From IMG/VR virus record IMGVR_UViG_3300021378_002906, positions 1 to 49,869 of that record: a stretch of 49,869 nt of DNA. One strand, given 5' to 3'. The position numbers were made by a program, and so were the translations under genes. The DNA comes from a virus. Positions 1-19,600 of the stretch are shown piece after piece; the stretch's first letter is position 1, and each line of letters starts with the position of its first letter. The notes beneath the pieces were generated by a model. It did not search any database and had not been told where the DNA came from. It worked only from the letters and a program-made list of their open reading frames with translations.

Positions 1-2110
1 ATAATAAAGTTTCGGGAAAGCTTATACTTTTTAAAGATGCACAATTATAAAAAGCTTGATATGAGATTTCAGATAAGCCTTCGTTTAATACTAAACTTTT
101 CACTCCACATGTTCTAAATGCGTTTTCTCCAAAATCTGTTACTGTTCCTGGTATAGTAACAGAATCAAAAGATGAACAAGCCGAAAAAGCTTCGTCCCCG
201 ATTGTTTCTAAAGTATCATAAAAGACAGGATCTAGCAAGCTTGTGCATCCATTAAAAGATCTATAACCTAAACTTTGCAATCCTGAACTCCATTTAAAAT
301 TAGTTAATGAAGTGCAACTTTTAAAACTATTATCTCCTAATGTTAATACAGAATCCGACAAACTTACTTCTTCTAGAGAAGAACAGCCTTCGAAAGTATG
401 TACACTTATATTTTGCAAAGAATCACACCCAGAAAGATTTGCTTTCATTAAAGAAGAGCAATTTTGAAAAGCGTAAGATCCAAGGCCACTTAATCCTTTA
501 CTAAAATAAAATTCAGTTAAGCTTGAATCGTACCTAAAACACTGATCTCCTATTTCTGTTATAGAATCTGCAGTGTTTACTGTTTTTAATTCATTGCAGC
601 CATAAAAAGATCTACTCGGAAGTTTTGGAAGTCCGTCTCCAACCACAAGATAATCAATATCTGTGTTTTCAAAAACTCTCGTTCCAATACCAGTAAGATT
701 CTTTGTTAAATACAATTCTCCTGTTGCCTTTATGTTTCGAAAAGCCTCATCACCAATATATTCAGTAGACCCTCCAGGAGCAATTCTTTTTATGAAATCT
801 AAATTTCCCCATATAGGGTTAAAACTGGGGAAAATCAATGCATTATACTTCCATTGGTCATCTACGTCACCAATTTGAAAGTCTAAAAGTATGTTACTTT
901 CGCCACTAAAGACTCCCTGCTCGAGATAAGCAGCGGATCCAGAATAATCATAGCCGTAGACTCTGGTTGGATAGTAATCGTTGTCATCTTCTCTTTCTTC
1001 GTTATCTCTATCTGAAGCTCCACTACAAAGTATCCCTATAGAGTTATCATCTGGATTACCTATTTCGACCTCAAAAGTAAGATCAACAGATTTGTTTGGT
1101 CCGATATTAGAAGAGAAATTTTCTGATAATAAATCAGGATTTTTAAGCCGCCATATAATAGCATTTTCTTTATCGCAATCTTTAGCCAATATAGATATAT
1201 CATTATTTAAAGATTTGTTGATACAAGCCCTTACGGATTCAGCAAGATCTACAACTTCAGTATTGCTAACTATAGAGTTTACACTTAAAGTAGCCTTTGT
1301 AGGATAATCAAGAACTCTTGCATACGCGCCTTTCGAACCTAATCTTTTTAGTTCAGATCTAGACAATGGAATAGATAAGTTAGCACTTTGTAAATGGAAA
1401 GAACCATTACCACTAATGGTCGATAAACTTTCAGAATCGAAACCTTCAAAATTTATTGTTATGTCGCCAGGTCTTAATGCCGTAGGTATATTTTCTATGT
1501 CACCTTTAGGTGCAATGATTTTTATCTTCTTGTCGTAAGGTTTTCCTTTATCTAGATCTATAGCTGCACTATCCCCACTTAACTGAGTAAGCCAAAAGCC
1601 TTCGCCTTCTACCACCCCGTGAATTGAATTTATATTTGAACATTCGTATTGCAGATCAACCTTAGCCAAAGAACCTACAGACATGTCTACAGAATAGTTT
1701 GTCAAAAAAGCATTACCTATACCTATTAAAGTATAAGGATCTCCGACCTCTAAAGATTTTGAATCAACACCTTCTTCAGAAGTTAATACATAGAAATTTT
1801 TCCCACTATTATTTTCTAAATGAGATTTTGCAAATTGATAACCTTCTTTAATATCAAAACCTAAAACGGACTCATTGTAACCATTGCCCAATAAGTAAGA
1901 CATATCAAAATTAACAGTAGGCAGTTCTAAATTTATATGATCTATTCTACTGCTTTTTCCATACTGATTGACATCTGTTTTATTCATGGAGAAACCATAA
2001 CTAGCTTCTTGTATTCTTGCTACTTCAGCGTGTTCCCAAACGTCAGTAGAATCTAAGTTATTGCTAACGAAAACTGATTCAGATTGGTATATAGTTCTGT
2101 TTCTTGACAT
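1..2110 (-). CDS. Tail-tube-domain protein fused to BspA-type LRRs (partial, runs off left edge)
   Basis: The open frame starts at the ATG complementary to 2108-2110 and continues past base 1, so the C-terminus is missing; about 703 codons are visible. The first ~370 residues are clearly paralogous to the two plus-strand tube-like proteins at 29927 and 31101: same MSRNR-IYQSE start, DVNQYG, PTVNFD, IGIGNAFLTNYSVD, SVGSL and LSIPLSRSELKRLGSK blocks. After a linker containing a GDVDDQW element, BspA-type LRRs (pattern IGDxAFxNCSSL) begin near residue 440 and continue to the edge. It lies 5 nt after the giant LRR gene and is probably co-transcribed with it. Seen: the two-part architecture. Inferred: a tail-tube-like domain anchors an LRR adhesin on the tail. 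No Shine-Dalgarno sequence is visible. Confidence 0.8.
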   Translation of the reverse strand, partial: MSRNRTIYQSESVFVSNNLDSTDVWEHAEVARIQEASYGFSMNKTDVNQYGKSSRIDHINLELPTVNFDMSYLLGNGYNESVLGFDIKEGYQFAKSHLENNSGKNFYVLTSEEGVDSKSLEVGDPYTLIGIGNAFLTNYSVDMSVGSLAKVDLQYECSNINSIHGVVEGEGFWLTQLSGDSAAIDLDKGKPYDKKIKIIAPKGDIENIPTALRPGDITINFEGFDSESLSTISGNGSFHLQSANLSIPLSRSELKRLGSKGAYARVLDYPTKATLSVNSIVSNTEVVDLAESVRACINKSLNNDISILAKDCDKENAIIWRLKNPDLLSENFSSNIGPNKSVDLTFEVEIGNPDDNSIGILCSGASDRDNEEREDDNDYYPTRVYGYDYSGSAAYLEQGVFSGESNILLDFQIGDVDDQWKYNALIFPSFNPIWGNLDFIKRIAPGGSTEYIGDEAFRNIKATGELYLTKNLTGIGTRVFENTDIDYLVVGDGLPKLPSRSFYGCNELKTVNTADSITEIGDQCFRYDSSLTEFYFSKGLSGLGSYAFQNCSSLMKANLSGCDSLQNISVHTFEGCSSLEEVSLSDSVLTLGDNSFKSCTSLTNFKWSSGLQSLGYRSFNGCTSLLDPVFYDTLETIGDEAFSACSSFDSVTIPGTVTDFGENAFRTCGVKSLVLNEGLSEISYQAFYNCASLKSISFPETLL

Positions 2111-2115
2111 TTTTA

Positions 2116-5100
2116 TTAAGGTGTGTAGGATTGTATCGTAGCTCCATTTGGTACTTTTTGATCTCCACTCCAAATTGTATCATAACCAGCTGCATGAATT
2201 GAATTAACATAAATTATCATATCTGATTTAGATTGATTAAAATTATCTAAACCTTGCCAACAAGATGCTGGACAATCAATTTGAATGGTTGACAATAAAT
2301 TCAAGTCTGTGAAATTACCACTTCCTATGGACATATTAGAATCTGTAGTTTTTATTAGAAGTTCACTCATTTGGTTACACAAATTCCAGTTAAGATCCCC
2401 TATTGAACCAGAAAAACCTTCATCTATCCTAAGTCTTTGTATTCCGTCTGATCTTTCCCAGTTTGAATTTCCTATGCTTTCAATACCACTTGGAAGGCTA
2501 AACACAGGAGGATTCCCCTCTCCCCAAGGATCAAAAGTCGAACCCTGACAATCATAAAAATTAGAATCTCCCAACACCTTCAATCCAGTAGGCAGTTTTA
2601 AAGTATTAAGGTTAATTTCTTTGAAGTTTTCATCCCCAATTATCTGTAAGCTATCTGGCAAATTCATAGCAAATATAGTTTTTATATTAGTATCTTCTAT
2701 GAAGTTTCTGCTCCCCATTTCTATTAAAGAGCTGTTTGATAAATCAACAAAAGCAAGACCAGAACAGTTTCTGAAGTTTTCGTCGCCCATGTATTCTAAA
2801 GATGTCGGGAAAGTTACTTCTTCTATTAAATTACTATCTTTGAAGTTGCTATTCCCAATGACCTGTAAAGAATTAGGTAAAACAATACCAGTGATAGAAT
2901 CACAATTCATGAAGTTTTCATTTCCAATTCCAGTAAGAGAATTACATAAAGAAAAGTTTAAGCCACTAAGGTTGGGTGAGTCTTTGAATGTAGTGTTCGC
3001 TAAACCGCTAAGTGATGTAGGAATAAATATACCACTTAAAGGTGTTTGATTAAATACACTATCTTCAAAGGTCACTACTCCATTGGGTAACCCATCAAAA
3101 GGATCTGGTCCAAATATTGCATTTTGGAATACACCCTCTTTAACTACTATGGTTGTTTGCGGCAAGGATAAATCGCCTATAGTAGCCCCGTTAAACAAGA
3201 ATGGATCTAAAACGGTAGTATTAACATCGTAATCTAATACATTTATGTTTGCATTTAAAAATAAATTACTTCCTACTGTTGTGATTGTGTTGCATATATA
3301 AAGATTGTCAATACTTGTGCAATTTTCAAAAACATTATCACCCAATGTAGTAATATTTCCGTTGCACAATTCAATATCAGTCAAATTAACGCAGTCCTTA
3401 AACACTGAGTCGCCCAAACTTTCTATCTGTGTCAATATAATATCAAACTCCAGAAGAGATGGACAATTCTCAAAACAGCTATCACCAATTGATGTAAGTT
3501 CTGTATTGAAAACAACACCAGACAAGCTAGCTAAATTTGAAAATGTTCCTGCAGATAAGTTTGTTAAATTAGGAGAACTTTGAAATACAACCTGTTCAAG
3601 TCTATTTGCTCCAAAAAACACCTCGATACCAAGACTATTAACTTCTGGCAAGGTCATAGTTCCATCAGCCCAGCTTCTTCTAAAGCATCCTTCCCCGAAA
3701 TCAACAGCACCGCTTACTCTAGAAAAATCAAACCCCTCTATACATCTGTGCTCTTTATATACTCCATAGTAATAATGGTTCGGTATTTTTTTTCCAGCAA
3801 ATACAGGATCTTCTGGTATTCCATCAGTAGCAAAAGAATATGACCCCAAGTTACTCAAGCCTGATCCAAATTCAAAAATGAACTTCCCAGCTCCTGACTC
3901 ACAATTAAACCCATTAAAAGTTTTATAGCCAAATTCTTTAACTCCTAACGGAGAATCAAAATTGTTATGATCCATTATAGTAAATTCATCGAACATGAAT
4001 CGGTCAGCTATTTCCATAGATTGAGATAATTTTAATTTTCTCAACTGCGCTTTAGAAAAACAATAATCCTTTGTCCCCGCCGTATTTCTGTCATAAAGCA
4101 CACCATTAGACCTATTTCTTATTTGCAAGTCTGTTCTATTACCAGTGAAATCATCGCTAAAGATTATATCTAAATTCCTACCTCTTATATTTTTGAAAGC
4201 ATTTCTGCCCAAATAAGATAATCCGCTAGGGATTATAAATTCGCCAGTTATGTTCGTTTCTTCGTTAGTCCAGAATACAGAGTTAACGTGGCGTGGGCCA
4301 TATTCATAACCAATACCACCAGCATAGGACGCTTGAAAAAGTTTTCCACAGGAATCAAAAGCATTGTCGCCTATAATCAATCCAGATTCAGTTCCTGAAA
4401 AATTTAATCCATTAGTCCAAAGTGTGTTTTGAAAAGAACTTGTGTCAACTAGCACAAGACCACTAGGCAAATTAATTATTGAATTTGGTGGCGATGGAGA
4501 ATCCCCATCATATATACCCCGCAAGCTGGTATTTTGGAAAGCATATTGGTCGATCCCGCTCAAATTTGGTGAGAAGTTATCTGCTACAAACTTAAGAGAC
4601 CAGTTAGTTTTGAACATGTTTTGTGAAAAATAATTAGTTCCGCTTGCACTAAACCCTGTCGTGTTGTTATTAACATAACCATTTGAGAATCCCGCAAATT
4701 GACCACCCCGCCAATCGATATCTGAATCGTCTCTTTGACCTTCAAGAGTAATATATTTTATATATTGGTGCGATACAAAGCACTCTTTACGTAAGTAAGG
4801 TTTTTCTGGGATAACTAAATTATCCATTCTGAGGTTTATTGGGTAGCGGTAATCTCTAGAAAAAGCCTGTTCACCTATATAATCCATATGATCAAATCCA
4901 GATACGCTATCTATAAGAGCGCCGTAAAACGACCGATAGTTTATATTTGGCAATGATGTTGGGAAGACTATATGACCAGTAAGCCTTGCAAATTCAAATG
5001 CGCTATTGCTTATATTCGATAAAGATGAAGAGGCGTTAATGCCCTTTAACTCACCAGCAGCATTAACATTAAATGAATCACCGAAAGAATAAAAAGCTTG

Positions 5101-8100
5101 TTCACCGATGGTTTCTAATGTACTAGGTAATTCTAAAGAAGCTCCTGTCCCTCCAGCCTGATAAAAACCATAACCTTCGATATTTAACAGGCCCTCATTT
5201 AGTTTGAATGTTTTATTTAAAGCTGCATTTCCGAAACTATGAAACGCGTTCCCGCTAATTCCAGTTAAGGAAGTACCAGTTAAAGTCAAATTACCAGCTT
5301 TATACATAAGCTGGAAAGCGCTTGGTTTTATGTTCTGCATTGTTTCTGGCAGATTTATGTCGCTAAAAACATTGGTGCAGCCATAAAAAGCTCTACTTTC
5401 TACATCTCTCAAACCGAAAGAATCAAAAGTTAATCCCTCTAAGCTATTACAATTTTCAAAAGCCGAGTCGCCAATACTATCTACAGACCCTGGGAAGAAA
5501 ACATCTCCTCTTAAAAGCCTTCTATTTTTAAATGCTCCAGTTGATATACTGTCGCACAAGCCGCCAACGTCTAACCAACAATTTTGTTGCTGCGTATTTA
5601 TGTTTTGGTAATTAGGGTCTGAAGTAAGACCCTCCTTCCAGTTGTCTGGTATGGCATATGGTTGAAAGTTTTGTGATGTTAATCTACCATTATTAGTATC
5701 TTCAAGCTTATTAGACTCGTTTTCATCAACGCCTGTATAAAACACGGTATCGTCAGCTACCTGTCCACTTATCTTTATTCCTTGGAAATAATATTCTCCA
5801 GCTATTTCAATTGTTCTAGAATCAAGCTGATAATCTTGATATATCAACGGAGATAATTGCATAACTCCCTGCACTCCAGAGAAAGCATTGTCGCCATCAA
5901 ATACAGTAGGAGGCAATGTGGTTACTAAAACTCCACTTAATCCTATTGCATTAAGAAAAGCGCCGCTTCCAATATTTGTAATATTAGATGTCAGCTCTAT
6001 TTCTCCATTTAAAGTAAGGCAATTAGCAAATGCTTCTTCTCCTATAGTCTCTGTGGATATAGAAAATCTTGGTGTGCCAACTAAGCTCTTACAGTTTTTG
6101 AAAGCCTTAGCTCCTATATCTACTATTGATTCGGGGAATGAAAAAGAACCATAAAAACCGCTACAATCTTCAAAAGCTCCAGACCCTATATCTCTTACGG
6201 TAGATGGTATGCTTAATGGACCCTCAAGTAAATCGTTTTGATAAAAAGCGTTATCACCTATGCCCGATAATGATGTTGGTAAAAGTAAACCTCCACTAAA
6301 ATTATAATCAGCGAATGCACCACTGCCTATATATTTTAGGTTGGGTGATGAATTATAATCTTCAAATTTAAGAGTTATTATATCCTGTTTGAAATAATCA
6401 TAATCTTGATATTGAACCTCTTCAAGAAACTTAGGTATAACTAAACCTTTAAAATCAGTACCTTCGAATGCTTGTGTTCCTATGCTTGCGTCTGGACCTA
6501 TTTGTAAATCGCAATCAAGACCAGAGCAACCTTGGAAAGCATATCTAGAAATTAAAGCTACAACCTCTGGTATTTTAAATACACCATCATAGCACGTAAG
6601 TTGAGAACAATCTTTAAAGGCCCCTTCTGGTATTACAGACGTTGTTTGATTTAAAATCAAAAATCCATTTAAAGAACTATTATTCAAGAAAGAATATTCA
6701 CCGTAAGAAACTCCATCTGGAATAACTAGATTGCCCGTCCAGCTTTCGCAATTTGCAAAAGCGTAGTCGCCTATACTTGTTAAACTACTATTAGAACCAA
6801 AGTTTGTTTGCCCAGTGAAATTATTTGGAAGAGGAGCTAGAGAAAATTGCCCATCAAAGCCAGAGCAGTTCTCAAAAGCTTTTTCGCCTATAGTTTCTAA
6901 ATTTTCATAAAGGTAAAGTCCTCCAATTAAATTAGACAGATTAGCAAAAGAAGCGCTTCCAATAGTTTCTAAATTTTTAGGAAGATCTAATAATCCAACT
7001 AAATTATATCCAGAAAAAGCTTTTTGATTTATATATCTTGTTTCTGATGTTGGGGAATTATAATTTTCGAAAGTAAGCTGAAAAGTTTTATCTTTGAAAT
7101 ACAAGTAATCCCCAGAATCTATAGAAACCTGATAATCAGGAACGCTCAAACTTCCAAAAGTAAATGGCTCAAAAGAATTTATCCCTATGTCAACTCCACC
7201 TTTTATTCTTAATGTCCCTAAGAGAAGATTAAAGCAGTTAAAGAATGCCTCGTCACCTATATAATCTACAGGTCTTGGTATTTCAAATAAATTATTGGTT
7301 ATGCTTGTTAGATTAAAACAGCTATCGAATACAGAAGCTCCTATTCCAGTAACAGAATCAGGTATCTCAAAATCATCCGAAGCAGACTGGCAATTTTTAA
7401 ATGTTCTGTCCTCTAAATATTCAATACCGTTACCTATAGATATGCTACCATCAAAACCAGAACAGTTAAGGAAAGCCTCCTCTCCTAGTGTCGTACATGA
7501 ATCTGGGATAATAATTGATCCTGTAAAGCTGTTGCAGTTTGCAAAAGCATTGTTTCCAATACTTAACGTTCCGCCGCCTATAAGTAAACCCTGATCAAAT
7601 CCAGAACAATTTTCAAAAGCATGATTCCCTATTGTTTCCAATTGAGAGAGAGCTAAAGAACCGTCAAACAAATCGCAACCTTTAAATCCAGAAGCACCGA
7701 TAAATTCTAATGATGCGGGTGTATTTAAAGATCCTGTAAATCTGTAATTTAAGAATGCTTTATCTTCTATACCAGAAACGTTAGATATGGCTTCAAATTC
7801 CAAACCAATAGACAAAGGTTTAAAGTATTCGTAGTCCCCATCTCCTATTACCTCTTCGTAATTAGGCACAATTAAATTATCAAAGTCTTGGCCAAAAAAA
7901 GCATCTGTTCCTATTATTGGAGCCACTCCTATTTTTATATCACCACCAAGCAAGTTTAAACAATTGTAAAAAGCCTCAGTCTCTATAGAGGTTACAACTC
8001 TTGGTATTGTTAATGTTTGACCTTCATAATGGCCTATCTGTGTACATCCTTTAAAAGCTCCTTCTGGTATTATCTCAGTGGTGTCATTAAGTATTAAGAA

Positions 8101-11100
8101 TCCATCAAGAGAGCTATTATTAAGAAAGCTAAATTTTCCATAATTAACTCCATCTGGAATTACCAAATTACCAGTCCAGTTTTCACAATTTGCAAAAGCG
8201 TATTCTCCTATCCCTGATAATAATGTAAACAAATCACTTTCTCCATTATAGGAAAAAGGTAAATTGACCAATGAAAAACCTCCATCAAAACCAGAACAAT
8301 TTCTAAACGCACTATCACCTATAGCTTCTGTATTTGAAGGCACGGAAAATGATCCATTTAGCAAGTCGCAATTCAAAAACCCAGAAGATCCTATATAATC
8401 AGTGCTATCTGGCAAGAATAAATTACCCGTTAATCTATAATTATCGAAAGCGAGATCGCCTAATATTCTGAATGCGCTGTCTGACTGTTCAAATATTAAT
8501 CTTAATTCTGTATTTTGGAATGTGTCATAATCGCCATCTAAAATAGCAACCGTACCTTTAGGTACTAGTAACCCGTTAAAGTTAGTCCCAAAGAAGGCGT
8601 CGGTTAAAATAGTTACACCAGGCTTTAATCTCAACACACAATCCAAAGAGGAACAGTTGTAGAAAGCTTCAGCGCCTATTAACGAAACATTTTCAGGTAT
8701 CCTAAACAAACCATCATAGCAATTTAAACCAGAGCAATTTTTAAATATACCTTCTGGTATACTGTCAACTCCGCTTCCTAACATTAAGAAGCCGTCTAGT
8801 GAAGACATGTTTAAGAAGGCGTATTCCCCCCAAGATGTAGTAGTATCTGGTATTACAAGATTTCCAGACAGGTTTGAGTTGTTAGCAAAAGCATAATCCC
8901 CAAAATATTTCAAAGATGTTGTTACAAACTCTTCAAATTCAACTGTGTATGAACCTGATTCACCTTCTATGAATTCATATTTTGACAAATCACCACTAAA
9001 ATTACTAGGTAATTCGCAAAGCGAAAACTCACCATCTAAACTACTCATTGCAGAAAACGAGTAGTCCCCGATTCCGCTTAAACTTTCCCCTACAAACAAA
9101 TCTCCGCTGAGATTAAAACAGTTATAAAAAGCATAATCATCTACTTCATTTAAGGTAAAAGGATTTATTGTAAATCTTCCGTCAAAACTACTGCATTCAG
9201 CAAACGAAGCGTACCCTATAAATTCAGAATTTATATCAAGGTCGCCAATAAAACTATTCCCAGAAAAGGCATAGTCACCAATCATCTCTGAGTTCTCACT
9301 GATGGTTAATGTATCAGCAAATGAGAAGTTGTCTACAAATGCATAGTCTCCGACATCCAAGACAGAAGGCTCTAGAAGTAATGCGCCAACAAAAGCATCA
9401 AAAGAATCAAATTCTCCATCTTCTATTATTAAGTCTGATGATGTAGCTCTTAACTCGTCAAAGTTAGTCCCTGCAAAAACATTTATGTAAGATGAGATAG
9501 CAGAGGCGGTAAGATCAGATATCCTTATGTAACCGTCAAGACTTGAGCAATCGACAAAAGCTCCATCTCCTATATTAGTCATTCTATTTGGTATAATCAA
9601 ATTACCAGAAAGATTACTGCATGATCTGAATGCATTTGTGCCTATTCCAGATACATTATTTGGTATAGTTAAAGGGCCATAAAGACCACCGCAATTTTGA
9701 AAAGCACTAATTCCAATACCCGTAAGAGATGATGGTAAATTGACCTCGCTGACAAAACTATAATTATCGAAGGCATTGTCTAAAATTCCACTTAGGTTTT
9801 TCCCGAACACAACCTCAATAGGTCTTGTCGAAAAATAATCAAATTCACCGTTTTCTATATTAACAACTGAATCACTAATTATCAACGTAGAGAAGGGGGA
9901 GTCGTCAAACGCATTGGAACCAACCAAAGTCGATGCACAAACGTCTGTGATCGTTATATCGCCACTAAGGCTACTACACCCTAAGAATGCTTCTTGCTCT
10001 ATTCCTGATATGTAATCATGGATAACAAGATCGCCGCTTAATAGAGAGCAGTTCTTAAAAGTGCCAGTTTTTATTATATTGTAATCTGCATTATTAGGTA
10101 GCGTTAGCGTACCACTCAAAGAAGAACAATTTAAAAATGCAAACTGTCCCAAATAACTTATGCCGTCTGGCAATGTCAAATCACCTATAGCATTTGAGCA
10201 ATTTGCAAAAGCATATTCTCCTATGCCTGAAGTAACATCCCCGAAATTAATGTAACCATCAATAGAGGAATTGTTAAAGAAAGCTCCATCTCCTACATAA
10301 CCAACATTAGGAACATCTATGTTACCATTTATTAAATCTAAATCATAAAAAGCGTAATTACCAATGTATTCAATATTGGACTCTTCGAAAATATATGTAC
10401 CACCGAATTCACAACCAGAAAAAGCGGCTTCGCCTACATATTTCAATGTTAACGGCATTTCAAGGTCTCCAACAAAAGAGTAATTAGAAAAAGAATAGTC
10501 GTCAACTACCGTTAACCCTTCTTGCATAGTTAGATACAAAGGATCATTTTTAAAATAATCAAAGTCATATTGACTAACTGTTCTTACTGAGTCGCTAATT
10601 ATTAATTCTGAGAATTGTATAGGAGTGTTGAAAGCGTCAACCCCTATGTTTCTTGCAGCTATATTTGTTAAAGTTATACTTTCAGTTAAAAGTGCGCATC
10701 CAAGAAAAGCCCTATCACCTATAAACTGAACAGAATCTGGTATAACTAAAAAGCCCAGAAGCCCAGAACAACCAAAGAATGATTCTTCGTTTATTTCATT
10801 AATCTGAGTTTGTGTTAAATCAATCTGTGTATTTAATCCTCTGCAGTTTTTGAAAGCCCCACTACCTATATAAGTAACAGAAGATTGCAACAATAGAGCA
10901 CCAGCAACTAAAGAGCAGTCTTGGAAAGCATAATTACCTATGTAGGCAAGATTTACAGCTTCATTAATACTGAAGACTCCATCTAAACTAGAGCAGTTGT
11001 AAAAAGCATAATCTCCGATATAAGTTACTCCTTCTGGTATTTCTAAATCTCCAGTTGCATTTTCGCAATTATAAAAAGCGTAATCACCAATATAAGCTAA

Positions 11101-13872
11101 GGAAGCTCCAAGGAAAATATCTCCAGATACACTACTGCAATTATAAAAAGCTTCTTCTCCTACACTTGTGACTTCAGAACCTAAAATTATATCACTGTTT
11201 ATGCTAGAACAATTTTTAAAAGTCTTACTTTTTATTTCTTTTATTCCGTCCCCTATCAATAAAATATCATTAAAGCCACTACAGTTTTCAAAAGCCCCGC
11301 TACCTAAATATTCTACAGTGTCTGGAATCACCAGCTCTCCTTCGAAACCGCATCCCCTAAAGGCAAAATCTCCTATTGTTTCAAGTTCATCTGGAACAAC
11401 AAAAAGACCCTCTAAACCATAACTACCATCAAAAGCTCCTGATTCTATATTTTTGCAGGTTGACCCTATAACAAGCAAAGAATCTCTACTTTGATTAGAA
11501 TACCAATTAGAAGGTATATCTCCTCTTTTAAATTTTATTATTTCTGCTGTATTGGCATCGAAAACTATCGTATCTAGAGATCCATAACAAACAGGCATTC
11601 CCTGGTATAACCCATCGACAGTATTTTGAGCGTAACCGTTGTAATAAAAAGGCGTTACATACATACAACCTCTAATTTCAGCAAAAGCTTCTTCTCCTTG
11701 GAATACATCAAAAGGAAAATTTACATATACATCTTCTATTCCAGAGCAACCAGAAAAAGATCTATCTCCTATAGATTGTATTCCGCTAGGTATGGTCAGA
11801 GAGTAACCTAATGAGTCGCAACCCATAAAAGCGTTATCGCCTATTGTTGAAATGCCAGAAGCAAAACTTAGTTTACCAGTCAAGCTAGAGCATCCTGAAA
11901 AAGCATTGGCAGCTATAATTTCCACACCAGGTAAAGATATTTCCTTATCAAATCCAGAACAACCTTCAAAAGCCGATAGCCCTATCTCAATAACATTATC
12001 TGGAATATTTAAATAACCATTTAAAGAGTTACATCCATAAAAAACATAGTCCTCTATTTCAGATAAGCCCGAACTTAAAATTAATTCACCATCAAAACCT
12101 TCGCAACCATAAAAAGCTTCAATACCAATACTAAGAACATTATCTGGTATTGTTAAGTCGAAAGACAAAAGTTTAGCATTTTTAAATGTCTTGTCTTCAA
12201 TTCTTGTCAGCGATTTACTTATGTATAAACCGCCTTCCATTCCGCTGCAGTTCTCGAACGCGCTCTGCCCCAAGCCAGACAATGAATCTGGCAAATAGAG
12301 ACTTTCAGAAAGTCCAGAGCAATTAAAAAATGCTCTTTCTCCTATAGTTTCGACATCCGCTAAAAAAAGATCTACAGCAGAAAAACAACCCATAAAACAC
12401 TCTTGCTTTACCTCTTGCAATCTTATTGGTAAAATTATTTCCTCTAAAGAAGAACAGTCTTTAAAAGCTCTCTCTCCAAAACTAGGTATTCGACATGTAG
12501 AATCAGAGTAAAAATCAGGTAAATTTGTACACCCATTAAAAACATCATCTCCGAAAGAGTTAATCTGCTCTGGCAAAAAAACAGGTTTATCTATATTAGC
12601 GCAGTCAGCAAAAGCCCCATCAAGAACATTGTAATTAGAAAACTCCCCAAAAGCTACCTTATAACCATTTAAATCTCCAGATTGCCAATACGCAATAACT
12701 TCCCCACGTATAGACTCATAAACTTCATTGTTATCATCTATAAATCTAGTATCTCTTATATCCTGCTCTGTGACAGCTGTCTTAAAGCCTTTCTCATCTG
12801 TTATTTGGAAAGAAAACTCAAGATTGTAATTTGTTTGCTCGTTTACTAATGTTTGATAATCTACATTTTCTAATTTTATATCTTCAAAATAGAACTGAGA
12901 AGTCACTTTTTTCTCGCAATCAGTAGAGATTATTCTAAGGTTTGATATCTGATCTCCCTTAACTAATCCGCTTATAAAACCAGCCTCTAAATTTGTGACC
13001 AAAGAGGATATAGATAATGTAGCATTTATTGGGTAATTTAATTTTCTAGAACATACATAATCTGACCCAAGCCTGTAAGAATTAGATCTTTTTATTGGCA
13101 AACTTACAGAAAATTGATTTATCCTATGATTACTTAACTCTAGCTTCTGGCCTCCTATAGATAAATTATCCATCTGGAAATTTATATCCGAAGGCAATAT
13201 GGTCTCTACCTTAGTTCTGTCCAGATTATATAAACCACCGAACTTATTAGGTTCATAATAATTAGTATCTAATATATTTACAGATCCTACCCCAACATTG
13301 TTTCCAGACTCTAAATTTATAGCTGGACTCTCTATGAATTCAGAAAAATAATTTTCAATTTTTATATTAGAACAATCAAACTCGACATCGACACTAGGGA
13401 CAGATCCTAGGGCAAAATTCATACTATAATTAGTCAAGTATGCATTACCGATAGAAACAATTTCTCCACCATTAGGGGAGGTTCCGTTTTTTATATACTC
13501 CAAAGCATCCTGTTCCTGCTCTGGATGGTTATAAAGATAAAAATTGTAAGAAGATTCTGTTAAATCTTTAATGATTGAAAATTTTGATTTAGCATCTAGG
13601 TTATAAACTAAACCCATAACTTCCTCATTGGCGAAAGTAGGGCTAAAACTATAACCCATCTTCAAGTTGACATCTGGGTGCCTTATAATATTTTCATCAT
13701 AAAAATCTTGAGATCCTAACTGTTTACTATCAGCTCTTACATTGTTAAAACCATAAGACAAGGATCTCACCCCCGCAAATACAAAACCAGATTCATTTTC
13801 AGTTTTAAATGCAGGTGACTCTGATATTACAACTGCTGTATTAGCACTATTTAATGTTATCCTTTGGCTCAT
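2116..13872 (-). CDS. Giant tail protein: tube-like domain plus BspA-type LRR blocks (3918 aa)
   Basis: Residues ~1-390 resemble the phage's tube-like proteins (SIGNAYLTNYSMNFALGSVPSVDVEF, then SVSLPIKRSNSYRLGSD and LNYPINATLSISSLV). The rest is more than 100 BspA-type leucine-rich repeats of ~23-28 residues (LRR_5-like; IGxxAFxNCSSLxGxLxIPxxV). Three LRR blocks can be seen, roughly residues 400-735, 780-2670 and 2740-3885. Blocks 2 and 3 open with a GDIPxxW or IPDNW element; each block ends in a cap-like segment (MYVTPFYYNGY, MQLSPLIYQDY, MIIYVNSIHAAGY). Block 2 holds a second-order repeat of ~235 residues. The gene ends 3 nt before the next gene and 5 nt before the partial LRR gene. LRRs of this type mediate adhesion in bacteria and protists, so a host-binding tail fibre or adhesin role is likely but inferred. 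No signal peptide or membrane segment is evident. Confidence 0.85.
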   Translation of the reverse strand: MSQRITLNSANTAVVISESPAFKTENESGFVFAGVRSLSYGFNNVRADSKQLGSQDFYDENIIRHPDVNLKMGYSFSPTFANEEVMGLVYNLDAKSKFSIIKDLTESSYNFYLYNHPEQEQDALEYIKNGTSPNGGEIVSIGNAYLTNYSMNFALGSVPSVDVEFDCSNIKIENYFSEFIESPAINLESGNNVGVGSVNILDTNYYEPNKFGGLYNLDRTKVETILPSDINFQMDNLSIGGQKLELSNHRINQFSVSLPIKRSNSYRLGSDYVCSRKLNYPINATLSISSLVTNLEAGFISGLVKGDQISNLRIISTDCEKKVTSQFYFEDIKLENVDYQTLVNEQTNYNLEFSFQITDEKGFKTAVTEQDIRDTRFIDDNNEVYESIRGEVIAYWQSGDLNGYKVAFGEFSNYNVLDGAFADCANIDKPVFLPEQINSFGDDVFNGCTNLPDFYSDSTCRIPSFGERAFKDCSSLEEIILPIRLQEVKQECFMGCFSAVDLFLADVETIGERAFFNCSGLSESLYLPDSLSGLGQSAFENCSGMEGGLYISKSLTRIEDKTFKNAKLLSFDLTIPDNVLSIGIEAFYGCEGFDGELILSSGLSEIEDYVFYGCNSLNGYLNIPDNVIEIGLSAFEGCSGFDKEISLPGVEIIAANAFSGCSSLTGKLSFASGISTIGDNAFMGCDSLGYSLTIPSGIQSIGDRSFSGCSGIEDVYVNFPFDVFQGEEAFAEIRGCMYVTPFYYNGYAQNTVDGLYQGMPVCYGSLDTIVFDANTAEIIKFKRGDIPSNWYSNQSRDSLLVIGSTCKNIESGAFDGSYGLEGLFVVPDELETIGDFAFRGCGFEGELVIPDTVEYLGSGAFENCSGFNDILLIGDGIKEIKSKTFKNCSSINSDIILGSEVTSVGEEAFYNCSSVSGDIFLGASLAYIGDYAFYNCENATGDLEIPEGVTYIGDYAFYNCSSLDGVFSINEAVNLAYIGNYAFQDCSLVAGALLLQSSVTYIGSGAFKNCRGLNTQIDLTQTQINEINEESFFGCSGLLGFLVIPDSVQFIGDRAFLGCALLTESITLTNIAARNIGVDAFNTPIQFSELIISDSVRTVSQYDFDYFKNDPLYLTMQEGLTVVDDYSFSNYSFVGDLEMPLTLKYVGEAAFSGCEFGGTYIFEESNIEYIGNYAFYDLDLINGNIDVPNVGYVGDGAFFNNSSIDGYINFGDVTSGIGEYAFANCSNAIGDLTLPDGISYLGQFAFLNCSSLSGTLTLPNNADYNIIKTGTFKNCSLLSGDLVIHDYISGIEQEAFLGCSSLSGDITITDVCASTLVGSNAFDDSPFSTLIISDSVVNIENGEFDYFSTRPIEVVFGKNLSGILDNAFDNYSFVSEVNLPSSLTGIGISAFQNCGGLYGPLTIPNNVSGIGTNAFRSCSNLSGNLIIPNRMTNIGDGAFVDCSSLDGYIRISDLTASAISSYINVFAGTNFDELRATSSDLIIEDGEFDSFDAFVGALLLEPSVLDVGDYAFVDNFSFADTLTISENSEMIGDYAFSGNSFIGDLDINSEFIGYASFAECSSFDGRFTINPFTLNEVDDYAFYNCFNLSGDLFVGESLSGIGDYSFSAMSSLDGEFSLCELPSNFSGDLSKYEFIEGESGSYTVEFEEFVTTSLKYFGDYAFANNSNLSGNLVIPDTTTSWGEYAFLNMSSLDGFLMLGSGVDSIPEGIFKNCSGLNCYDGLFRIPENVSLIGAEAFYNCSSLDCVLRLKPGVTILTDAFFGTNFNGLLVPKGTVAILDGDYDTFQNTELRLIFEQSDSAFRILGDLAFDNYRLTGNLFLPDSTDYIGSSGFLNCDLLNGSFSVPSNTEAIGDSAFRNCSGFDGGFSLVNLPFSYNGESDLFTLLSGIGEYAFANCENWTGNLVIPDGVNYGKFSFLNNSSLDGFLILNDTTEIIPEGAFKGCTQIGHYEGQTLTIPRVVTSIETEAFYNCLNLLGGDIKIGVAPIIGTDAFFGQDFDNLIVPNYEEVIGDGDYEYFKPLSIGLEFEAISNVSGIEDKAFLNYRFTGSLNTPASLEFIGASGFKGCDLFDGSLALSQLETIGNHAFENCSGFDQGLLIGGGTLSIGNNAFANCNSFTGSIIIPDSCTTLGEEAFLNCSGFDGSISIGNGIEYLEDRTFKNCQSASDDFEIPDSVTGIGASVFDSCFNLTSITNNLFEIPRPVDYIGDEAFFNCFNLLLGTLRIKGGVDIGINSFEPFTFGSLSVPDYQVSIDSGDYLYFKDKTFQLTFENYNSPTSETRYINQKAFSGYNLVGLLDLPKNLETIGSASFANLSNLIGGLYLYENLETIGEKAFENCSGFDGQFSLAPLPNNFTGQTNFGSNSSLTSIGDYAFANCESWTGNLVIPDGVSYGEYSFLNNSSLNGFLILNQTTSVIPEGAFKDCSQLTCYDGVFKIPEVVALISRYAFQGCSGLDCDLQIGPDASIGTQAFEGTDFKGLVIPKFLEEVQYQDYDYFKQDIITLKFEDYNSSPNLKYIGSGAFADYNFSGGLLLPTSLSGIGDNAFYQNDLLEGPLSIPSTVRDIGSGAFEDCSGFYGSFSFPESIVDIGAKAFKNCKSLVGTPRFSISTETIGEEAFANCLTLNGEIELTSNITNIGSGAFLNAIGLSGVLVTTLPPTVFDGDNAFSGVQGVMQLSPLIYQDYQLDSRTIEIAGEYYFQGIKISGQVADDTVFYTGVDENESNKLEDTNNGRLTSQNFQPYAIPDNWKEGLTSDPNYQNINTQQQNCWLDVGGLCDSISTGAFKNRRLLRGDVFFPGSVDSIGDSAFENCNSLEGLTFDSFGLRDVESRAFYGCTNVFSDINLPETMQNIKPSAFQLMYKAGNLTLTGTSLTGISGNAFHSFGNAALNKTFKLNEGLLNIEGYGFYQAGGTGASLELPSTLETIGEQAFYSFGDSFNVNAAGELKGINASSSLSNISNSAFEFARLTGHIVFPTSLPNINYRSFYGALIDSVSGFDHMDYIGEQAFSRDYRYPINLRMDNLVIPEKPYLRKECFVSHQYIKYITLEGQRDDSDIDWRGGQFAGFSNGYVNNNTTGFSASGTNYFSQNMFKTNWSLKFVADNFSPNLSGIDQYAFQNTSLRGIYDGDSPSPPNSIINLPSGLVLVDTSSFQNTLWTNGLNFSGTESGLIIGDNAFDSCGKLFQASYAGGIGYEYGPRHVNSVFWTNEETNITGEFIIPSGLSYLGRNAFKNIRGRNLDIIFSDDFTGNRTDLQIRNRSNGVLYDRNTAGTKDYCFSKAQLRKLKLSQSMEIADRFMFDEFTIMDHNNFDSPLGVKEFGYKTFNGFNCESGAGKFIFEFGSGLSNLGSYSFATDGIPEDPVFAGKKIPNHYYYGVYKEHRCIEGFDFSRVSGAVDFGEGCFRRSWADGTMTLPEVNSLGIEVFFGANRLEQVVFQSSPNLTNLSAGTFSNLASLSGVVFNTELTSIGDSCFENCPSLLEFDIILTQIESLGDSVFKDCVNLTDIELCNGNITTLGDNVFENCTSIDNLYICNTITTVGSNLFLNANINVLDYDVNTTVLDPFLFNGATIGDLSLPQTTIVVKEGVFQNAIFGPDPFDGLPNGVVTFEDSVFNQTPLSGIFIPTSLSGLANTTFKDSPNLSGLNFSLCNSLTGIGNENFMNCDSITGIVLPNSLQVIGNSNFKDSNLIEEVTFPTSLEYMGDENFRNCSGLAFVDLSNSSLIEMGSRNFIEDTNIKTIFAMNLPDSLQIIGDENFKEINLNTLKLPTGLKVLGDSNFYDCQGSTFDPWGEGNPPVFSLPSGIESIGNSNWERSDGIQRLRIDEGFSGSIGDLNWNLCNQMSELLIKTTDSNMSIGSGNFTDLNLLSTIQIDCPASCWQGLDNFNQSKSDMIIYVNSIHAAGYDTIWSGDQKVPNGATIQSYTP
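6389..10570 (-). repeat. Higher-order (~700 nt) super-repeat inside the giant LRR gene
   Basis: A marker segment, (D/E)(F/Y)DYF-K-like followed by a beta-rich stretch and then AFxNYxFxGxLxLP, recurs seven times. The markers are near 10560, 9840, 9410, 8525, 7840, 7100 and 6400, mostly 685-885 nt apart, with one short interval of ~430 nt. Between markers the same order of LRR variants reappears: YAFANC, then NLVIPDG, YxFLNNSSLxGFLIL, IPEGAFKxCxxL, AFYNC, and AFFGxDFxxLxVP. This indicates that blocks of about 8-10 LRRs were duplicated as units, not only single repeats. Confidence 0.75.
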
Positions 13873-13874
13873 AA

Positions 13875-15722
13875 TCAGAGTGTAATGTCAAATACTAGTT
13901 TTCCTTCGTTCCTCTTGGCAACCCAATAAGGATCACTATAACCAACAGCAGATAAAGGAACATGAATTTTCTTTAGTCTTTCCATGCTTTGAGATGGAAA
14001 TGGATCCCCAAATATTATTGGCGCTACTGGAGCATTTATATAAACATTATACACGTATTTACATCCATAAAACGCATTATCTTCTATTGTTTTTATAGTT
14101 GGAGGTAGTGTTATATCCGTGCCTAATTTTGCACAAGTCCAAAAAGCCCCTTCTTCGATATGCTCAACCCCAGAAGGTATTTCTAAATCACCATAAAGTC
14201 TTCGACAATTCCTGAATGCCTCTCTAGATATTGTCTTTAATGTGCTAGGTATTTCTAATTTGCTTTTTAAGTAAAGGCAATTATAAAAAGCGCCAGTCCC
14301 GATACCAGTTAAAATCTTACCCAAAGACAATTCGCCATTTAAATTACTGCACCCATAGAAAGCTCTATTACCAATGTATTTTGTATTAGGTGGGATTTGA
14401 ATATTGTCAATAATTTCTGAACAATCCTTAAAAGCTTCTTCTCCTATATAATTTAAACCGCCACCTAACAATACAGATCCATTTAAAGCAGCACAAGTAT
14501 CAAAAGCATTACTTTCAATTCTTCTTACGTTTCCAGGTATGATTAAATCACCTCTTAAATTGACGCTGCCCTGAAAAGCCCCAGAACCAATCGTTTCACA
14601 AGCAGCTCCAATTTTAACTTGAAAAATGTCAGAGTTCATACTGGCCCAGTAATTAGGAATGTTGCCAGTAACCAAATCAACCAAATTTGAATTACCATCA
14701 AAAGTTCTAGTCGAAAGAGTCTCTTGACTATGAATTACTCTGTCTGGCATTATACCAAGAGGGTCTTCATCAAAAAATACCTCTAAATTGTGAGAGTCAA
14801 AAGTGTCCCACGTATGAACCCATCTTTTACATACAAAAACTTTAGGCCTATTATAGACAGTAGGGATCCTTTGCTTAAATCTCCTGTAACCACCTTGTGT
14901 TTCTAAAAAATGAAGCATACTCTTAAGCTGCTTCGTAGTTATTTTTGAAAAGTTATAACTAATAGGAAAAGATGCTGTGTTATATTTTGTCTTTCTTCTT
15001 AAAGGAAAGCCGTCTTTATCTCCAAATCTTTGAACGTCAAACTGCACGGTGTTGCTTTGTCCTACGTCTGGTTGCCAAAAAAAGTCCCTTGTCCAGTAAG
15101 GGCTGTCTTCAAGATTATCGTATGAGTCCGATGAAGAATCATGATCTTCTGTGCAATAGTAAAAATTATTTATTTTGTCTTGGTATTTAAACTCCAACCT
15201 CTGATCGTAAACGACATCATGTTTTAAATAAAGTCTGTTTTCTTGTTCATAATATAGACTTTCGTAATCAGGATTTAAAAAATTCAAAGAAGCCCAATTA
15301 AAACTACCAGGAGCTTCTGTTATTTCAAATTGTGAACTTATCGAAAATGAAGAAGGATCTAATTGATTAATACTGTAAGAATTGCAAAAACCATTTATTT
15401 TTTTGTATATAGTTGGATCTGAATCAAAAAAAACAGGTTCAACACCTCTTTTACTTTCTAAAAAATTAGCTAATTCCCTAGCCTCTTGTTCATCAACCTC
15501 ATAAACCATATTAAATTTAGCATAAAGATTGTTAATACCGACTGGCATTATATTTAGATAGTTATGATTCGTCGTTATAGCTTTATCCTTAGCTCTGAAC
15601 TCAACAGAAGAACCCTTGGTAGGGCAAGATATTTCTTCAATACTTTCAAAATCAATTATTCCAGAAAAATTTCGAGTCCTGTCGTAAATCAATTCTTCGT
15701 CTTGTATTTTAACGTAAGCCAT
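13875..15722 (-). CDS. Minor/distal tail protein with C-terminal BspA-type LRRs (615 aa)
   Basis: Residues ~1-340 form a non-repeat domain containing two similar halves. Each half has an 'xFxVxxxxxxELxxxLxxLExxxG' helix (ELANFLESKRGVEP and KQLKSMLHFLETQGGYRR) followed by a strand-rich segment. This resembles the layout of phage minor tail or distal tail proteins, but I do not recognise a specific family. After a GNIPNYW element (~residue 352) come about eight BspA-type LRRs (residues ~365-590) and a C-terminal cap, IHVPLSAVGYSDPYW. It sits between the tube-domain gene and the giant LRR gene, 2 nt from the latter, in one minus-strand run. The start is the ATG at 15722, preceded by a very AT-rich stretch with TATAAT four bases upstream and no Shine-Dalgarno sequence. 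Confidence 0.75.
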   Translation of the reverse strand: MAYVKIQDEELIYDRTRNFSGIIDFESIEEISCPTKGSSVEFRAKDKAITTNHNYLNIMPVGINNLYAKFNMVYEVDEQEARELANFLESKRGVEPVFFDSDPTIYKKINGFCNSYSINQLDPSSFSISSQFEITEAPGSFNWASLNFLNPDYESLYYEQENRLYLKHDVVYDQRLEFKYQDKINNFYYCTEDHDSSSDSYDNLEDSPYWTRDFFWQPDVGQSNTVQFDVQRFGDKDGFPLRRKTKYNTASFPISYNFSKITTKQLKSMLHFLETQGGYRRFKQRIPTVYNRPKVFVCKRWVHTWDTFDSHNLEVFFDEDPLGIMPDRVIHSQETLSTRTFDGNSNLVDLVTGNIPNYWASMNSDIFQVKIGAACETIGSGAFQGSVNLRGDLIIPGNVRRIESNAFDTCAALNGSVLLGGGLNYIGEEAFKDCSEIIDNIQIPPNTKYIGNRAFYGCSNLNGELSLGKILTGIGTGAFYNCLYLKSKLEIPSTLKTISREAFRNCRRLYGDLEIPSGVEHIEEGAFWTCAKLGTDITLPPTIKTIEDNAFYGCKYVYNVYINAPVAPIIFGDPFPSQSMERLKKIHVPLSAVGYSDPYWVAKRNEGKLVFDITL

Positions 15723-15757: not shown

Positions 15758-16603
15758 TTAAGGTAAAATTTTATTGTCACCTCCTAAATGACCAACATAA
15801 GATAAATTCATAGCCATGGTTCCGTTTATGGACTGGCTTAAATTTCTAGCTACCAAACTAGCTTTTGGTATTTTTACTTGATTCAATTTGGTTCCGTTTT
15901 TACCTTCTATATTTATAGAAATATCTCTATTATCTCTTGAATTTAAAAAGTCAAAAGTTTCAACATTGTAGCTTTGGCTTAATTCTAATTGGACAGATGC
16001 AGTATACTTTATAGGTCTTTTTTCTTCTATTGCGAATGGGTTTACAGATCCTATTCCATAATAAACTTCATGATCTACTCCTACTGAGTAGTTAAAACCT
16101 ATAACCTTATTGTCCTGAAAATCTTCTGAAGTTATGTTCATAGTCTGTTGAGATGAAGCATCTGCAATCGGATGATTCTTTTTTCTCGGCCCCCGCCTAA
16201 TGTCTCCATTTTTCTTTCTATTGACGCCACTTGTTACCTCGTCCAGTATTCCCAAACTAGTATTGACCTTGGGTAATGATCCTACCGCACAATTTATTGA
16301 ATAACTTTTTATGTAACCGCTTTCAAAACCATAGTAAGAATTATTTTTCTCGTCATGAATTTGACCAGCAATAGTTTTATTTTTGCCTAAAACTTCATAA
16401 ATAGGATCCTGGTATATCAAAATCCTAGATAAATTCATAGACTGAGATGTTGGCCCTGAAGGTGTAGTTAAACCCATCTCTGTTCCTATAGGACTAGCAA
16501 TAGAGCTATTGTTTTTGGAAGAAATAGAAACAGAATTAACCCCTGTTAAATGAAAACCATCCAACAAAACAAAAGATTCGTGATCTAAAATAGCATTTAT
16601 CAT
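15758..16603 (-). CDS. Tail-tube-like domain protein, probably distal tail (281 aa)
   Basis: This stand-alone protein shares the arrangement of the phage's tube-like family: GYIKSYSINCAVGSLPKVNTSLGIL matches IGIGNAFLTDYALDLSVGSLPTATVSF, and later strands include KYTASVQLELSQSYN and an ASLVARNLSQSINGTMAMNLSYVGHLGG ending. It has no LRRs. It lies directly downstream of the tape measure gene, where siphophages usually encode distal tail proteins, so a tail-tip or tube-end role is likely. Its start codon is 1 nt after the tape measure stop codon, and a GGAGG lies inside the tape measure 3' end about 14 nt upstream, suggesting translational coupling. The family link is by pattern similarity only. 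Confidence 0.6.
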   Translation of the reverse strand: MINAILDHESFVLLDGFHLTGVNSVSISSKNNSSIASPIGTEMGLTTPSGPTSQSMNLSRILIYQDPIYEVLGKNKTIAGQIHDEKNNSYYGFESGYIKSYSINCAVGSLPKVNTSLGILDEVTSGVNRKKNGDIRRGPRKKNHPIADASSQQTMNITSEDFQDNKVIGFNYSVGVDHEVYYGIGSVNPFAIEEKRPIKYTASVQLELSQSYNVETFDFLNSRDNRDISINIEGKNGTKLNQVKIPKASLVARNLSQSINGTMAMNLSYVGHLGGDNKILP

Positions 16604-16604
16604 A

Positions 16605-19600
16605 TTATCTAAGCGAGCCTCCTAATCTTTTTTCTTCTCTAAGAACTTCTAAGACTTTAAGCTTGATAGCCTTGCCTAACTCTTCTCTAGCTCTAGAGCC
16701 CCCGTCGGACCCTTGACTTTCCGAACTTTCTTGACCTCTACCACTAGATCCTTGAGTTGCGCTGTTACCACCTCCATTGACGGTTATATTTATTTCTCCA
16801 GAATTTTCTCTGGTTGCAGCTAATAATTCGTCCAGCTTATCTACAATCTTTTCTGAATTTTCGGTGTCCCCGCCAGAGTTAAGGCTTTCAAGATTTTCTT
16901 GTCCTATTCTTTCTGTAGCAGCCTTGTTTAATACAAACTCCCCACCACTAAGCATAGCCATAACGCTGTCCACATCAGAAGAGCCTCCTGTAACGTAACC
17001 TCCTGTAGCGTAATTACTTCCATTTCTGTAACCATCCGCAACTTTACGATAATAACTTCCCTCTCCTGAAAAATTAGCAATACCGCCTGTTCCTCCAGAT
17101 CCTCCCCAGAAGCTCTTCAGGTAACCTCCATTGCTTTGGACGTTTGAATTAAATGAACCTCCAGTCGATCCATCGGCAGCTGATGCACCAGCCGCAGCAA
17201 TTCCAGATGCACCAGCCTGTGCTCCCATTGTAATTAAACTTATAGCTAAATTAGTTAATATTGCTTTCTTTCTTGCTTTCTCTTGTTCTTTGAGATCTTT
17301 CAGCAGTTGTTTGTATTCAGCAACTTGCTGTTTGTATTCCAGATTCAATCCAAATGCTTGCCCTTTAGCTTCTCTTGTCGCTGCCTGTAGAGGCGTCTCT
17401 CTTGTTCTTCCGAAGTTAGTAAGCCTAACACTTTCTGGTTCCAGGGATATGCCAGAAGCTCCAGCAAAGCTATTTGTAGAGTCACGATTGCCGCTAGTGA
17501 AAGCCTGTGTTGAAAAGTCTAATAAGTTTTGGTCTCCCGTTATGCTTCCTTCTCCGTATAAACCAGGAATTATATATCCTCCATTTCCTGTTTGTTTTCT
17601 CAAAGACCCTTTTCTGATCTCACTTCCAAATATATCTGTAGTTCGAAAATCCTCCTCTTCTCTAGCAAATGGAACTCCAGAAACCAAGCCTCCTTTTGCA
17701 AATTTTTGCAACTTACCTTGATTTAAGGCTTCTAAAAATGTTGTACCAAAAGACGATACCGAATCTTTGGACATAACAAATTCACCACCAGTTAATAAGG
17801 ATGGTACTTCATTCTTCTTTTCAGAACTGGCAACCTTTAAACGCGAAAGCCTCTCATCTAAAACACTACCGAGTTTTGGATCAAAAGATCTCTCAAGGCC
17901 AGATGCTGGTGTGGCATCTGATGCCAGTAGACCAGATTCAGATCTGAATTTAACATTATCTTCTGTTTTTTGTTTTTTCTCTTTTATGAAATTCTCATAA
18001 TCCGTCCATTTAGAAGCGAAAGATCCAGAGTCAGATCTTAATTCTCTGTTTCTTAATCTTTCATCTGGTTTATAGACTTCAGAAAAGTCAGCTTTAGGTG
18101 TGAATTTTGATGCAATCAGTCCAGACTGTGTTCTGTTCTCTTCTTTTTCGTCTTGTCTCTTATTGCTGACCACTCTTGTTGCGTCTGCTTGTGGAGTCCA
18201 ATCCGATGACTCGATTCCAGACTCAGTTCTAATTCTTACTCTATCTTCTGTTTTTTTCTTTTTTGCGTTTACGATGCTAGCCGCAACGGTCCATTTAGAA
18301 GCTACTATTCCAGATTCTGTTCTGTCATCTTGATCTATGGTTTTACCGTCTTCATCCTCTTTTGATCTTGATGCTTTTGGGGTCCAATCTGAAGCCAAGA
18401 TGCCAGACTGAGTTCTATCTCCTTCGTTAACACCTCTTCTGTATTTTGTGTATTCGTTTATTGGGTCATTCCCTCCACCAACCATTCCGCCAGCAGCGAA
18501 ACCAGGAAGCTTACCAGAGTTTATAGACTCCATCATTCCAGATCCATATTTCTGAACAGCACTTTTTCTCATGACAAATTCGCCGCCCATCAGAACAGCT
18601 GGTACGTCATCTTTCATTCCAGAACCTCCAGTTACCCTTCCACCTTCTGCAAGTCCCACAGCGCCTAAGATGGGGCCAAGGAAAGAACCAACTCCAGGTA
18701 TAAGGCCAGCTAAACTACCAATAGCTCCACCAAGAAAACCACCGCCACCAGTAGAGCCTTGTATACCGCCTCCGCCTCCGCCTCCGCCGCCATTAACGAC
18801 ATTAACAAAAACAGGGTTTGATTGAGAACCTTTTGGTCCACCGCTTTCGCCACCTAGACCCAATAAACCAGCTACACCACTTATATCTTGTCCAATAAGA
18901 CCGCTGAGGGCTTTAAGACCACCGCCTTTTATATCAATACCTCCACCTTCGCTTTCGCCACCTTCTGCCGTCAAACCCCCTTCGTCGGCTGATGTTACAA
19001 AAAGTGGGCTTGTTTTTGTAAGCCCTCTACTACTATTTACCAAGGTGGCTCCTGCAATAGAGCCTCCAACAGAGCCTGCTTTATCTTTATTGCCAAAGAT
19101 ATTTCCAAATATTCCTGGTAATCCAGTATCTCCACCACCGAACACAACGCCCCTTAGTAGATTATTTAAAGAAGTTTTTGCAAGTTCGTCGAGAAAGCCA
19201 GTAGCAGCCTCTCTTAAGGTATCTCTAAGAGATTCTCCCTTGCTTAAAGAGTCTACTAATCCATCTGATAATGTATCAACGAAATCGCTAGACGCACTAG
19301 CCAGAAGCTCTTTAATCTCTCTAGCTGAATCTTCTGGGCTCTTACCTTGTCTTTTGAATAGTTCTCCTATACTTGGGTTGTCTTTTTGAGATTCAAGAAC
19401 AGCAGCTTCATTTAAGATTGCTTCTTTTTCACCTGTGGTTTTTGCCTCATTAAGTTTTTCTCTTAAAGCTAATATTTTGAGATTTATTTGATATTCATAT
19501 TCAAGCTGAGACCTAGAAGCTGTACTTATATCTCTTAAAACGGCAAGCTCTTTTTCTCTACGTAAAACATATTCATTAGCTTGTCTTACTCTATCTACTT

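Follow-up and report, generated by a model that had tools for sequence, protein, structure and literature searches.

Phages usually bind their receptors by trimeric fibres or by small carbohydrate-binding modules, and LRR repeats form a fold that serves specific recognition in organisms ranging from bacteria to animals. In phage T5, p140 is a tube paralog that forms a ring in the tail tip and anchors the p132 collar and the side fibres; p140 is decoration-less, pb6 carries an Ig-like domain, and the two share 9% (PMC10038345). In the lactococcal 936 phages, carbohydrate-binding modules are present on Dit, tail and neck proteins, and some bound cells (PMC6669499).

We analysed a 49,869-base fragment of a long-tailed phage (the window), whose source is an uncultured marine virus of bacteria. 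The tape measure protein (TMP), which also matches the annotated tape measure proteins of isolates, is followed downstream by four tightly packed minus-strand genes, A, B, C and D in that order, and three of these (B, C and D) run on from their tail domains into BspA-type LRRs:

2..2110, minus strand: gene D, tail-tube domain, linker and BspA-type LRR arm; 3' end missing
1019..2110, minus strand: D residues 1-364, doubled tail-tube fold (AlphaFold model)
791..1006, minus strand: D residues 369-440, predicted disordered linker (pLDDT <50)
2..790, minus strand: D residues 441-703, LRR solenoid
2116..13872, minus strand: gene C, 3918 aa, tail-tube domain and ~145 LRR units
12781..13872, minus strand: C residues 1-364, doubled tail-tube fold (AlphaFold, Foldseek, structural alignment)
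2263..12645, minus strand: C LRR array with a 24-aa period, ending in an LRR-type cap (LRR_5 matches 2278-12480, autocorrelation)
13875..15722, minus strand: gene B, 615 aa, two lambda gpM-like domains (residues 1-328) and ~10 LRR units
15758..16603, minus strand: gene A, 281 aa, bare in the window, distant tube-family member
16605..25790, minus strand: TMP, 3061 aa (PF10145, 100 bits)
29927..31075, plus strand: stand-alone tube protein MTP1 (family A4; conserved in relatives)
31101..32225, plus strand: stand-alone tube protein MTP2, nearest kin of the D domain
40620-42479: terminase large subunit

Two adjacent paralogs matching phrog_25472 (39623-40141 and 40147-40617) lie beside the terminase gene and by eye are like aspartyl/asparaginyl beta-hydroxylases. 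A further protein that appeared tube-like by eye (45626-46615) has no BLASTP or hhalign support.

Genes C and D are each one uninterrupted ORF. The preliminary description had recognized LRR fusions in these two genes, and both stand, although the count was too low, B (13875-15722) being fused as well. Against the curated LRR_5 (PF13306) cut-off of 27.7 bits, C scores 1139 bits in 28 stretches, with repeats beginning near residue 410, the D fragment 216 bits, and B 133 bits; autocorrelation gives a repeat period of 23 aa in D. Gene D had been described as opening with a close paralog of the stand-alone tube-like proteins and C with a more diverged version, and the comparisons bear this out. 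The protein encoded at 31101-32225 shares 53% identity, along its full length, with D residues 1-365 (E 8e-125), and 30% identity with C residues 35-322 (E 4e-26); the C N-terminus matches the tube family by profile-profile comparison at 99.9% (E 3e-32). These E values, taken with the fold Z scores given below, rule out chance similarity as the source of the match, and together with the LRR_5 bit scores they put the fusions of tube domain and LRRs far beyond chance.

Gene D starts with an ATG at 2110 and runs for 703 aa before the window ends. Its complete homologue, 1569 aa long, is encoded in contig L200, within a stretch that has 90.7% DNA identity to the left end of the window, and full-length D has ~49 LRR repeats. 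The giant C ORF is not an assembly artefact, since counterparts of 4393 and 3172 aa are found at the same place in two further contigs. There is no sign of recent homogenisation of the LRR units, whose repeated DNA is 60–80% alike. A Pfam scan of the whole C protein recovered no domain beyond LRR_5 and no carbohydrate-binding module, and neither the C nor the D arm has an extra terminal domain.

A fold comparison of both N-terminal parts had been set beforehand as the refuting test, and for both a tail-tube fold is predicted, homologous to the stand-alone proteins. C residues 1-364 were modelled with AlphaFold2 from 48 aligned proteins of the window and IMG/VR (mean pLDDT 82.3, pTM 0.83), and a Foldseek search of the PDB with this model gave as its top match the major tail protein of SH-Ab15497 (8xan, E 8e-12), with T5 tail-tip core proteins and the P74-26 tail tube among the other top matches. 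By VIA-align the C model superimposes on 8xan (Z 19.9, rmsd 5.4, 288 aligned), 8ed0 (Z 18.6, rmsd 5.6, 290 aligned), 7qg9_A (Z 17.2, rmsd 5.6, 297 aligned) and 9iny (Z 17.1, rmsd 5.4, 293 aligned), and it also matches the T5 tail-tip chain 9ioz_A (Z 15.9, rmsd 5.3, 265 aligned). Residues 3-364 give Z 15.8–19.9 across 8xan, 8ed0, 9iny and 5ngj, and every listed structural match at Z ≥8 is a tail, neck or baseplate protein. The tube part of the D model (703 aa, mean pLDDT 73) gives Z 17.2–19.3 overall, matching the P74-26 tube 8ed0 (Z 19.3, rmsd 4.5, 301 aligned), 8xan (Z 19.0) and the T5 tube 9iny (Z 18.9). The switch to LRRs that had been placed near residue 440 of D is seen in the model as well, with pLDDT below 50 at residues 369-440 and a solenoid thereafter to residue 703 that resembles the Bacteroides surface protein 4fd0 (Z 27.7, rmsd 2.7, 269 aligned). 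A flexible linker followed by a solenoid, as modelled in D, would fit an arm tethered outside a ring.

The fold predicted for the N-terminal parts of C and D corresponds over its full length to T5 pb6, the P74-26 tube and the SH-Ab15497 major tail protein, and the genes likewise lie in a tail gene cluster; however, a profile search of PDB sequences picked up no similarity to these tubes, and here it is extra paralogs that bear LRR arms rather than, for example, an Ig-like domain. Gene C resembles T5 p140 in being a tip-dedicated tube paralog, the third gene after the TMP and outside the major tail protein (MTP) clade, but p140 is decoration-less and works with a separate collar, whereas the C chain itself continues into a giant LRR arm, and C occurs bare in relatives. 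The arms share LRR_5, a 23–24 aa period and a solenoid like 4fd0 with the BspA-type LRR surface proteins of Bacteroides and others (PF13306). Those bacterial proteins have a secretion signal and a surface anchor; in contrast, B, C and D begin straight at their tail domains without the secretion signal and cell-surface anchor of bacterial adhesins, and a phage tail-tube domain takes the place of the anchor.

Gene B was not supported by sequence as a member of the tube family and is instead gpM-like: it matches PF05939 in two stretches (56.3 bits, cut-off 39), and the best PDB match of its profile is the lambda tail tip protein M (8iyk_M, E 0.028). The B N-terminus and lambda M belong to a common family, and B is the second gene after the TMP, but B doubles the domain within one chain and then continues into an LRR arm. 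Gene A matches the tube family by hhalign at 92% (E 5e-7). A profile search of PDB sequences with the tube alignment returned only spurious PDZ-LIM matches, and neither the tube protein nor A had a relative in INPHARED. Most LRR matches in INPHARED come from gut-phage fragments without annotation; the single complete, annotated genome examined there has its LRR gene outside any tail module.

Relatives were drawn from IMG/VR for the tube protein (24 loci), C (24 loci), A (the best 80 of 175 loci) and B (the best 80 of 106 loci). A tube domain and LRR_5 in one chain, sought in other phages as the preliminary description had proposed, are present in related IMG/VR contigs. The order TMP-A-B-C is conserved in most relatives, with all three proteins bare (~263, 317 and 365 aa). 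Extensions of more than 100 aa are carried by 2 of 92 distinct full-length A proteins, 6 of 103 B, 12 of 88 C and 2 of 34 tube proteins, and many of these extensions are LRR, although this gives no more than a rough guide to how many phages bear LRRs, because the relatives of A and B are the best 80 of 175 and of 106 loci. The carrier differs between phages. LRR arms are on B, C and D in the window and in phages G002 and G003, on A alone in G010 (B and C being bare), on C alone in G015 and G016, and on A and B in G017, where C has a weak LRR match; the LRR-fused A homologues of G010 and G017 are 1733 and 2671 aa long, and in L199, which is more distantly related, a C of 2072 aa bears LRRs. Since the carrier varies in this way, the LRR arm is an optional add-on of the tail-tip ring proteins that has been repeatedly gained, lost or moved. 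Together with the bare forms of A, B and C that follow the TMP in most relatives, this lends independent support to the preliminary proposal that a tube-like domain would let the LRR part be built into the tail.

Other modules occupy C in some relatives. A C-type lectin (PF00059, Lectin_C) is inserted within the C tube-like domain in L153 (11020-13275, E 7e-7) and L155 (11023-13092, E 5e-6). Four distinct C proteins (L179 10950-12914, L059 9950-11932, L156 6831-8801 and L183 1421-3385) have a 300-aa C-terminal extension in which H, D and GDSGNP are invariant, a pattern shared with trypsin-like proteases; Pfam and PDB profile searches of the extension (L179/L059) did not confirm a protease, so that this reading rests on the invariant H, D and GDSGNP. 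The extension of gene C in G017 (L039 16992-20000) contains an AGS_C match, a SMODS/CBASS-type sensor domain, at residues 758-799 (E 6e-9). In G020 a 903-aa fn3 and LRR_5 protein (L041 10088-12799) is encoded amid head genes, between protease-like and portal genes, and so lies in a structural region without being fused to a tail ring.

Short LRR proteins (211–397 aa) are found next to DUF4376/phrog_10508 tail-fibre genes and a GHTHSEY-repeat protein in G002 (L033 8409-11238, at ~93-96 kb) and G015 (L037 2222-6494). Their position beside fibre genes is a separate sign of LRR use in the tail fibres of this group, where LRRs seem to form fibre tips as well, and they might be donors for the big arms. 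A search of genome contigs for relatives of C gave only two MAG contigs, one assigned to Lokiarchaeota (L204, JABXKB010000009.1) and one alphaproteobacterial (L203, CAKZQZ010000032.1); these are probably misbinned viral contigs, yet they offer a lead on hosts.

The C and D paralogs appear to differ in age. In a tree of the family, D forms one clade (100/100) within the MTP2 branch, although support for this placement is moderate (86/99 and 83/89) and the G003 member is long-branched. This position suggests that D arose by duplication of the major tail protein and acquired its LRR arm within this subgroup; as an extra paralog it is present only in the window, G002, G003 and L200. Gene C, present across the group and outside the MTP clade, is an old and separate tail-tip paralog. 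The proposal that a virion scaffold domain was recombined with LRRs is supported, with the amendment that C is an older tail-tip paralog and not a recent fusion of a major tail protein. In G003, gene D (L034 13658-18135) is split into ORFs of 528 and 964 aa with a 4-base overlap, such that the tube part and most of the LRRs may be separate proteins, or else a frameshift may be involved.

The LRR parts evolve faster than the tube parts. Between the window and G002, dN/dS is 0.05–0.09 in the ring domains of B, C and D (~0.07 in the C tube domain), and 0.18 in the LRR part of B, 0.10–0.28 in that of C and 0.43 in that of D, with the highest value in gene D, 0.81, in the linker; no value exceeds 1, and all are approximate because synonymous sites are near saturation in several genes. 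Blocks of 182, 49 and 246 aa distinguish the C arms of these two phages; the G003 arm lacks ~800 aa. Relative to G002, synonymous divergence is ~1.2 where C begins and drops to 0.2 in D (other tail genes, 0.7–2), and this drop suggests that the D end (left end) of the cluster was recently exchanged.

We propose that A, B, C and D are ring proteins of the distal tail, in which the C and D rings would be stacked near the tip beside A and B. The doubled tail-tube fold shared with T5 pb6 and p140 suggests, by analogy, that the N-terminal domains of C and D form trimeric, pseudo-sixfold rings, with a BspA-type LRR arm facing outward from the C-terminus of every B, C and D subunit. Threefold ring symmetry would give three arms per ring. 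An LRR repeat adds roughly 0.5 nm, and with ~145 repeats the C arm would reach ~70 nm if extended. The arms would then serve as tail fibres that bind the host surface. We put the probability of this reading, tail-tip rings of A–D with outward LRR arms acting as host-binding tail fibres, at about 0.72. Within it, display of the arms on the virion is strongly indicated, and we infer the trimer symmetry, the outward orientation, the arm length and the binding and recognition of the host. It is also possible, though we offer this more tentatively, that the four ring proteins, drawn from at least two fold families (tube-type A, C and D; gpM-type B), make up a general socket system in which each of them may acquire or shed interchangeable modules (LRR arms of up to ~4000 aa, a C-type lectin and a trypsin-like enzyme), and that the LRR arms are the main host-recognition fibres, replacing trimeric fibres.

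The main rival is that the displayed arms bind particles, extracellular polysaccharide, mucus-like gels or other virions rather than a specific receptor, and so hold the phage in places where its hosts occur. Adhesion in general is what BspA-type LRRs are used for, the arms are an option that most relatives lack, and the fibre cassette of G002 and G015 could hold the true receptor-binding proteins; however, that cassette itself uses LRR modules, and the lectin and protease-like modules that occupy the same socket in relatives suggest dealings with the cell surface, so that we consider such non-specific adhesion unlikely. Since LRR arms are missing from most relatives, infection across the group as a whole cannot depend on them, and the conventional fibre cassette also present in G002 and G015 means that they may be accessory.

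Two further explanations give the arms a different role altogether. They could be mainly structural, serving as long side-fibre stalks or as a collar that anchors further proteins while a separate tip protein recognizes the host, much as in T5, where the p132 collar and the side fibres are held by the p140 ring (PMC10038345). Yet the arms are covalent and highly variable in length, those of C and D end without an added domain, and the bare relatives indicate that the ring works without them, which makes this improbable. Alternatively, the fusions could be non-virion proteins made in the infected cell (e.g. for exclusion of other phages) in which the tube domain is a relic, and the confinement of the extra paralog D to the window, G002, G003 and L200 would suit such a role. 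We regard this as scarcely credible: C keeps its place in a tail-tip gene order that is conserved across the group, its tube domain is under strong purifying selection (dN/dS ~0.07), and the proteins start right at the tube domain with no visible secretion signal. Our best reading remains that the tail-tip ring proteins are sockets for exchangeable adhesion arms.

The principle is already known as the 'evolved' tail-protein strategy: the evolved Dit and extended major tail proteins of the 936 phages likewise place an optional adhesion module on several tail proteins (PMC6669499). In the 936 phages the module is a small carbohydrate-binding one, whereas here it is a BspA LRR solenoid of up to ~4000 aa, and the novelty lies in the kind of module, in how large it is, and in its distribution over as many as four ring proteins from two families. 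A literature search of limited scope found no description of LRR arms on tail-tube proteins, nor of BspA-LRR arms this large on rings. LRR arms would here be built directly into several tail-tip rings at once, with C outsizing the tape measure protein, and the bare, LRR-, lectin- and enzyme-like forms of one ring protein point to tail-tip rings as exchangeable sockets. Other phages can be screened for the socket pattern, and virions can be used to test it; for a group without an isolate found here, it would offer a handle on host recognition in abundant marine phages.
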